Shown one piece after another: positions 30,244 to 30,558 of a stretch of 64,000 nt of DNA. The translations under genes were made by a program, and so were the position numbers. The DNA is from Microcoleus sp. FACHB-672 (lineage in GTDB: Bacteria > Cyanobacteriota > Cyanobacteriia > Cyanobacteriales > Oscillatoriaceae). Where the stretch lies: contig NZ_JACJOU010000033.1 in the NCBI RefSeq assembly GCF_014695725.1, forward strand, positions 372,001 through 436,000, in the 5' to 3' direction. The first letter of the stretch is position 1; every line of letters begins with the position of its first letter. Under the pieces are notes generated by a model. That model saw only the letters and a list, made by a program, of their open reading frames with translations, did no database searches and was not told the DNA's origin.

Positions 30244-30262
30244 AATAATGATAATCATTTAT
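30244..30262. promoter_or_regulatory. Fur-box-like site
   Basis: AATAATGATAATCATTTAT matches the classical 19-base Fur consensus GATAATGATAATCATTATC at about 15 positions, including the central ATAATGATAATCATT. It lies ~65 bases upstream of the psb34 -35 element and ~290 bases upstream of the 29704-29952 gene. Iron control of either gene is inferred, not shown. Confidence 0.5.
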
Positions 30263-30328
30263 TGTGCTTCGATAGGCAGGGCTAATCTCCTGCCAAAGTA
30301 TTTTCTATCTTACGAAGCCGGCAGGGGG

Positions 30329-30357
30329 TTGACACTTTGTAACGATTTCGTTACATT
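30329..30357 (+). promoter_or_regulatory. psb34 promoter
   Basis: A consensus -35 TTGACA (30329-30334) is separated by 17 bases from TACATT (30352-30357, 4 of 6 to TATAAT). The spacer carries a palindrome GTAACGA-TT-TCGTTAC (30339-30354). psb34 starts 34 bases after the -10. Confidence 0.55.
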
Positions 30358-30367
30358 TATTTACATA
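30350..30367 (+). promoter_or_regulatory. HLR1 (RpaB-binding) site upstream of psb34
   Basis: The sequence GTTACATTTATTTACATA is an exact match to the HLR1 consensus (G/T)TTACA(T/A)(T/A)NN(G/T)TTACA(T/A)(T/A), the RpaB site known from high-light-responsive cyanobacterial promoters. It overlaps the predicted -10, a position where RpaB normally represses in low light. Confidence 0.7.
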
Positions 30368-30390
30368 AGGTAACAAACCGGAGCAAACAA

Positions 30391-30558
30391 ATGTACACCA
30401 CCGACGACAATGGCATCCTCAACAACTACGCCACTGAGCCTGATCTGTACTATGCTGAGTTCCCTTCCCCAGAGCAGCAGCGTCAATACGCCTTTGTGGG
30501 CGGGTTTGCGACTTTGTTTGTCAGTTTGCTGGTGTTAGTTGCTTTATCTGCCGGCTAA
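30391..30558 (+). CDS. psb34: Photosystem II assembly protein Psb34 (HLIP-like)
   Basis: 55-residue single-span protein: polar N-terminus MYTTDDNGILNNYATEPDLYYAEFPSPEQQRQYAF then one helix (VGGFATLFVSLLVLVALSAG). The N-terminus and length match the Psb34 (ssl1498-like) family, found in PSII assembly intermediates near CP47 where high-light-inducible proteins also bind. It lacks the chlorophyll-binding ExxNGR motif of true HLIPs. The start follows AACCGGAGCAAACAA. A strong terminator follows ~90 bases later, so the gene is monocistronic. The promoter carries an HLR1 site, suggesting control by light through RpaB. Confidence 0.85.
   Translation: MYTTDDNGILNNYATEPDLYYAEFPSPEQQRQYAFVGGFATLFVSLLVLVALSAG

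Follow-up and report, generated by a model that had tools for sequence, protein, structure and literature searches.

The promoter of a psb34-like gene in Microcoleus sp. FACHB-672 raises the question of which protein controls it, and in which direction. The locus lies within a 64,000-nucleotide stretch of the genome, referred to here as the window. The original prediction placed psb34 under the control of RpaB, through an HLR1 site overlapping the -10 element, and suggested that another regulator may compete by binding a second palindrome in the promoter spacer.

An HLR1 array fused to the core promoter

The promoter has a consensus -35 hexamer, TTGACA, at 30329-30334 (plus strand), followed after a 17-bp spacer by a -10 hexamer, TACATT, which a promoter scan located at 30352-30357 (plus strand). 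The predicted transcription start, about 7 nt past the -10, falls at 30364-30365 (plus strand), and GGAG at 30380-30383 (plus strand) is the likely ribosome-binding site. Lying across the -10 we find an exact HLR1 site, GTTACATTTATTTACATA (30350-30367, plus strand), with no mismatches to KTTACAWWNNKTTACAWW. It is made of two direct KTTACAWW repeats, GTTACATT (30350-30357) and TTTACATA (30360-30367), with 2 nt between them, and every position fits KTTACAWW-N2-KTTACAWW. The first half-site contains the -10 hexamer and the second the predicted start. In its letters and coordinates the original description of a TTGACA promoter with an exact HLR1 across its -10 was accurate. The site is the sole exact HLR1 in the window, where a dinucleotide model expects 0.0028; under the same type of model the whole genome would be expected to hold 0.28 exact sites and contains 11, with a reversed-pattern control giving one.

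We also observed a third direct half-site, GTAACAAA (30370-30377, plus strand), which was absent from the original prediction. It begins 10 bp past the second and creates an overlapping second HLR1 at 30360-30377 with a single mismatch. The direct half-sites thus start at 30350, 30360 and 30370, a spacing of exactly 10 bp. On the upstream side, a further RpaB-type half-site, GTTACAAA, lies on the minus strand at 30336-30343, with an overlapping plus strand reading, GTAACGAT, at 30339-30346. The -35 hexamer itself doubles as a KTTACA-like half-site with one mismatch, in phase with the others. Relative to the start predicted from the -10, the HLR1 spans approximately -14 to +4, with the third half-site at approximately +7 to +14, while the array extends upstream to about -28.

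The element is conserved among orthologues

The promoter match alone is not above chance, with two promoter-like matches observed in the region against 2.5 expected, and it is conservation that makes it convincing. We gathered the regions upstream of genes of the same protein clade, the MYTT clade described below, from whole genomes of the order, which gave 93 non-redundant sequences. The alignment of upstream regions, proposed as a check on the original prediction, placed the HLR1 at a fixed position on the strand of the gene, mostly beginning between -46 and -39 relative to the ATG. With at most one mismatch it is present in 81 of the 93, where dinucleotide shuffles give 0.27, and with at most two mismatches in 89 of the 93 (2.5 expected from the shuffles); as related genes are not independent, these counts exceed the true number of independent observations.

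The column profile of 100 orthologous promoters reads TTGAC..TTtGTAAyaaT..GTTAnATTwrTTTACATAARkTAACAAA, with TTGAC at columns -21 to -17. The second half-site, TTTACATA, is nearly invariant. The first doubles as the -10, and its C is commonly A or T; in 70 of 77 orthologues the -10 is TAAATT, TATATT or TACATT (26, 23 and 21, respectively). The third half-site matches KTWACAWW with no more than one mismatch in 59 of the 77, and the left half-site is retained with no more than one mismatch, in one reading or the other, in 75 (direct in 69, inverted in 63 and both in 57). Within the genus, G389 has two changes in the 49-bp element against 16 in the 63 bp immediately upstream (Fisher p 0.0017). 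Neither of the two changes in the element affects a half-site base of the direct array, and nor does the single change in G388.

Several features were noted upstream of the promoter. A TGTCAA (or AGTCAA) motif about 33 bases before the HLR1, upstream of the -35, is found in 67 of the 77 orthologues (L066, L070 and L072, for example), frequently as an inverted pair with TTGACA, and is missing from the genus of the window. A Fur-box-like sequence, AATAATGATAATCATT (30244-30259), precedes the predicted start by around 105-120 bp and is identical in G388. We rejected it as part of the HLR1 element, as 6 positions of the 26-bp stretch around it are changed in G389, where the HLR1 array is preserved. 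Between this box and the promoter is a hairpin, GGCAGG-loop-CCTGCC (30275-30294), whose arms differ in G389.

The promoters of 37 orthologues, none of them from the genus of the window, were used to build a sequence model, with which we then scanned the 6.37-Mb genome. The site in the window ranked first, at 54.1 bits (E 6.9e-14). Second was the promoter of another psb34-like gene, on contig C7 (39.6 bits), and third that of a psb35-related gene (L006, NF047380; 31.6 bits), which has the identical HLR1 18-mer roughly 30-47 bases before its ATG (G000:C15:498737-498754). The fourth site (L256, G000:C2:31908-31947) has no obvious protein gene near downstream and may mark an unannotated small gene or RNA. 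The fifth is the promoter of an hli gene (22.9 bits), hli being a known class of RpaB target. Separately, an exact HLR1 at G000:C20:13287-13304 (L009) lies about 250 bp upstream of crtW, the gene for a beta-carotene ketolase, on the strand opposite to the gene. A chance match in an A+T-rich promoter was considered, given that the half-sites are themselves rich in A and T and that the region contains many promoter-like matches. However, the rarity of exact sites, the rank of the site under the held-out model and conservation over dozens of genera make this explanation vanishingly improbable, and we consider it refuted by the conservation.

The palindrome is built from the half-sites

The palindrome in the spacer is also present as originally described. 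It reads TGTAACGA-TT-TCGTTACA (30338-30355) and shares the bases GTTACA with the HLR1. The left arm, TTTGTAAC, gives GTTACAAA when read on the minus strand, a perfect KTTACAWW, and the first HLR1 half-site forms the right arm, so that the palindrome consists of an inverted and a direct half-site. The idea that a separate regulator binds here and competes with the HLR1 over the promoter draws on the perfect 8-bp arms of the inverted repeat, which are intact in both G388 and G389, only the central two bases being altered in the latter. The symmetry itself is not conserved among the 77 orthologues. The symmetric pair at -11/+4 is complementary in 12 of them, against 22 by permutation; the G is fixed while its partner turns to A or T, and the symmetry is broken because that partner changes to suit the -10. 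A slight excess of complementarity at the inner pair, -6/-1 (48 against 39.8 permuted, p 0.0015), would fit a palindrome-binding protein but may be explained by shared ancestry, and the remaining pairs show no excess over permutation. The palindrome was rejected as a separate operator by this test. An NtcA-type site was rejected too; the NtcA consensus is GTA-N8-TAC, and the spacing here is wrong, at GTA-N10-TAC. With both arms accounted for as RpaB-type half-sites, a competing regulator is quite unlikely, and this part of the original prediction is not supported. Adjacent half-sites best explain the palindrome, as a by-product, and no competing regulator is needed.

The downstream gene belongs to a separate Psb34 clade

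The gene behind the promoter (30391-30558, plus strand) encodes 55 amino acids and matches the NCBIfam family NF033486, 'Psb34', with 88 bits (E 2.7e-25), against a curated equivalog cut-off of 45. Read by eye, the protein has one apparent hydrophobic membrane segment, and the same reading of the sequence did not find the chlorophyll-binding ExxN motif. Three genes in the genome exceed the cut-off for NF033486. Besides the window gene, they are a canonical copy on contig C16, whose product begins MPYINEEGGRLNNF, and the C7 gene, which encodes a 140-residue protein with the Psb34 domain at its end.

In a tree of 91 proteins a split with 100/100 support divides the canonical clade from the MYTT clade, which holds the window gene and whose proteins mostly begin with MYTT. 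There is one exception to the labelling, a protein starting MKYTT that had been called canonical from its first letters and is placed inside the MYTT clade. The Psb34 of solved structure, Tsl0063 (7dxa, 7nhp), starts MRYTTDEGGRLNNFAIEPKVY, a canonical-type N-terminus; it is not among the proteins of the tree, and the C16 copy gives it a higher score than the window gene does. The name 'psb34' in the original prediction is correct at the level of the family, but the gene belongs to a paralogous clade and the canonical psb34 is the copy on C16. On its sequence, the window gene stands apart from the clade of the structurally characterised Psb34, and 'psb34-like, MYTT clade' describes it more precisely than 'psb34'. 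We also observed MYTT-clade genes in tandem, in two to five copies (L080, L078 and L117, in G074, G507 and G600). In L078 and L080, the arrays where the later copies were read, these have a weak operator or none.

The canonical psb34 genes (Tsl0063, ssl1498 and the C16 copy) belong to the same protein family, and the C16 copy also has a three-half-site HLR1 array, in a different arrangement. Of 37 canonical upstream regions, 15 have an HLR1-like site with at most two mismatches on the opposite strand, beginning 80-98 bases ahead of the ATG (0.83 expected). In the C16 copy, the array is reversed relative to that of the window gene, and its three half-sites occupy about -73 to -46 relative to the predicted start, which is a position of the activator type.

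RpaB as the probable reader and the proposed direction of regulation

The genome encodes an orthologue of RpaB (L046, NF045944; 397 bits against a cut-off of 330). Together with the conserved HLR1, this makes the window gene very probably an RpaB target, as the original prediction proposed. An HLR1 at -38 to +23 is associated with repression and one at -66 to -45 with activation (PMC13421787), and in scp/hli genes the HLR1 lies within the core promoter (PMC6331805). From these positions, we propose that the element at 30329-30377 combines, with good probability, a compound RpaB operator and a sigma-70-type core promoter, and that the operator would keep the gene repressed in low light and free it in high light. 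The anatomy of the element, its conservation and the RpaB gene are observed directly; RpaB as the binding protein, the preference for repression over activation, the response to high light and the role of the protein are all carried over from other strains.

The mechanism that we envisage uses the direct half-sites at 30350, 30360 and 30370, which share one face of the helix, and the fourth in the spacer (30336-30346), readable on either strand; jointly they span the promoter from the spacer to slightly beyond the start. With HLR1 and third half-site placed over and just past the predicted start, bound RpaB should exclude polymerase, so that in low light its occupation of the operator would block transcription. 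In high light RpaB would leave, and the psb34-like gene would be expressed alongside the hli and psb35-related genes; its Psb34-like product would be available to CP47-containing photosystem II intermediates.

It is also conceivable that RpaB binds here and activates the gene in low light, given that it is able to activate (PMC13421787) and that the half-site array reaches upstream of the HLR1. This seems very unlikely, however, as the HLR1 lies at -14 to +4 of the predicted start and not at -66 to -45, and a half-site is also the -10, so RpaB and polymerase should be mutually exclusive. RpaA and RpaB have some sites in common in S. elongatus (PMC13421787), and the genome encodes several other OmpR-type regulators, about 41-43% identical to the RpaB query, which could read similar repeats. 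Against a different OmpR-type protein, such as RpaA or an SrrA-like regulator, as the main reader stand the exact match to the RpaB consensus and the presence of the same element at the hli and psb35-related promoters of this genome, and we regard it as unlikely. Repression by RpaB is the reading that we retain.

Discussion

The site belongs to a known class, the RpaB/HLR1 core-promoter operators. The hli (scp), psbA and nblA promoters of Synechocystis and S. elongatus likewise carry KTTACAWW-N2-KTTACAWW over the core promoter near the start, and are those of photoprotection or photosystem II genes repressed by RpaB. The element in the window differs in its psb34-like target and in having three direct half-sites in phase and another in the spacer, all conserved together as one block, and its RpaB site is putative. 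Multiple HLR1 elements at one gene are also seen at psaAB in Synechocystis, where they serve two promoters, whereas the overlapping registers here form one compact array at one promoter. Three aspects seem to be new: a conserved array of several half-sites, a psb34-like gene as the target, and the difference from canonical psb34. A full-text literature search returned no paper naming Psb34 together with RpaB, in a scope that did not include the main RpaB regulon study, so ssl1498 may already be listed there; a further search returned none naming Psb34 and Nostoc together.

One published observation speaks against the proposed light switch: in Synechocystis, Psb34 stayed at a stable level in one photosystem II complex (PMC9458560). 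That protein, however, is the canonical paralogue. Judged from HLR1 position only, the two psb34 paralogues may respond oppositely to light. More tentatively, it is possible that in cyanobacteria with both kinds of psb34 their RpaB wiring is opposite, the canonical psb34 being activated and the MYTT paralogue repressed in low light, that a shift in light would swap the Psb34 forms on CP47 modules, and that RpaB would occupy the array, with its four to five helically phased half-sites, as a cooperative oligomer and not as a single dimer.

The RpaB high-light regulon gains from this element a conserved and widespread candidate target. Psb34-like and Psb35-related proteins are linked to CP47 assembly, and their genes would come under the same type of switch as the Hlips with which these proteins work. 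Annotation at the level of the family masks the existence of two psb34 clades that differ in where their HLR1 sites lie, and this suggests a testable regulatory divergence of the paralogues.
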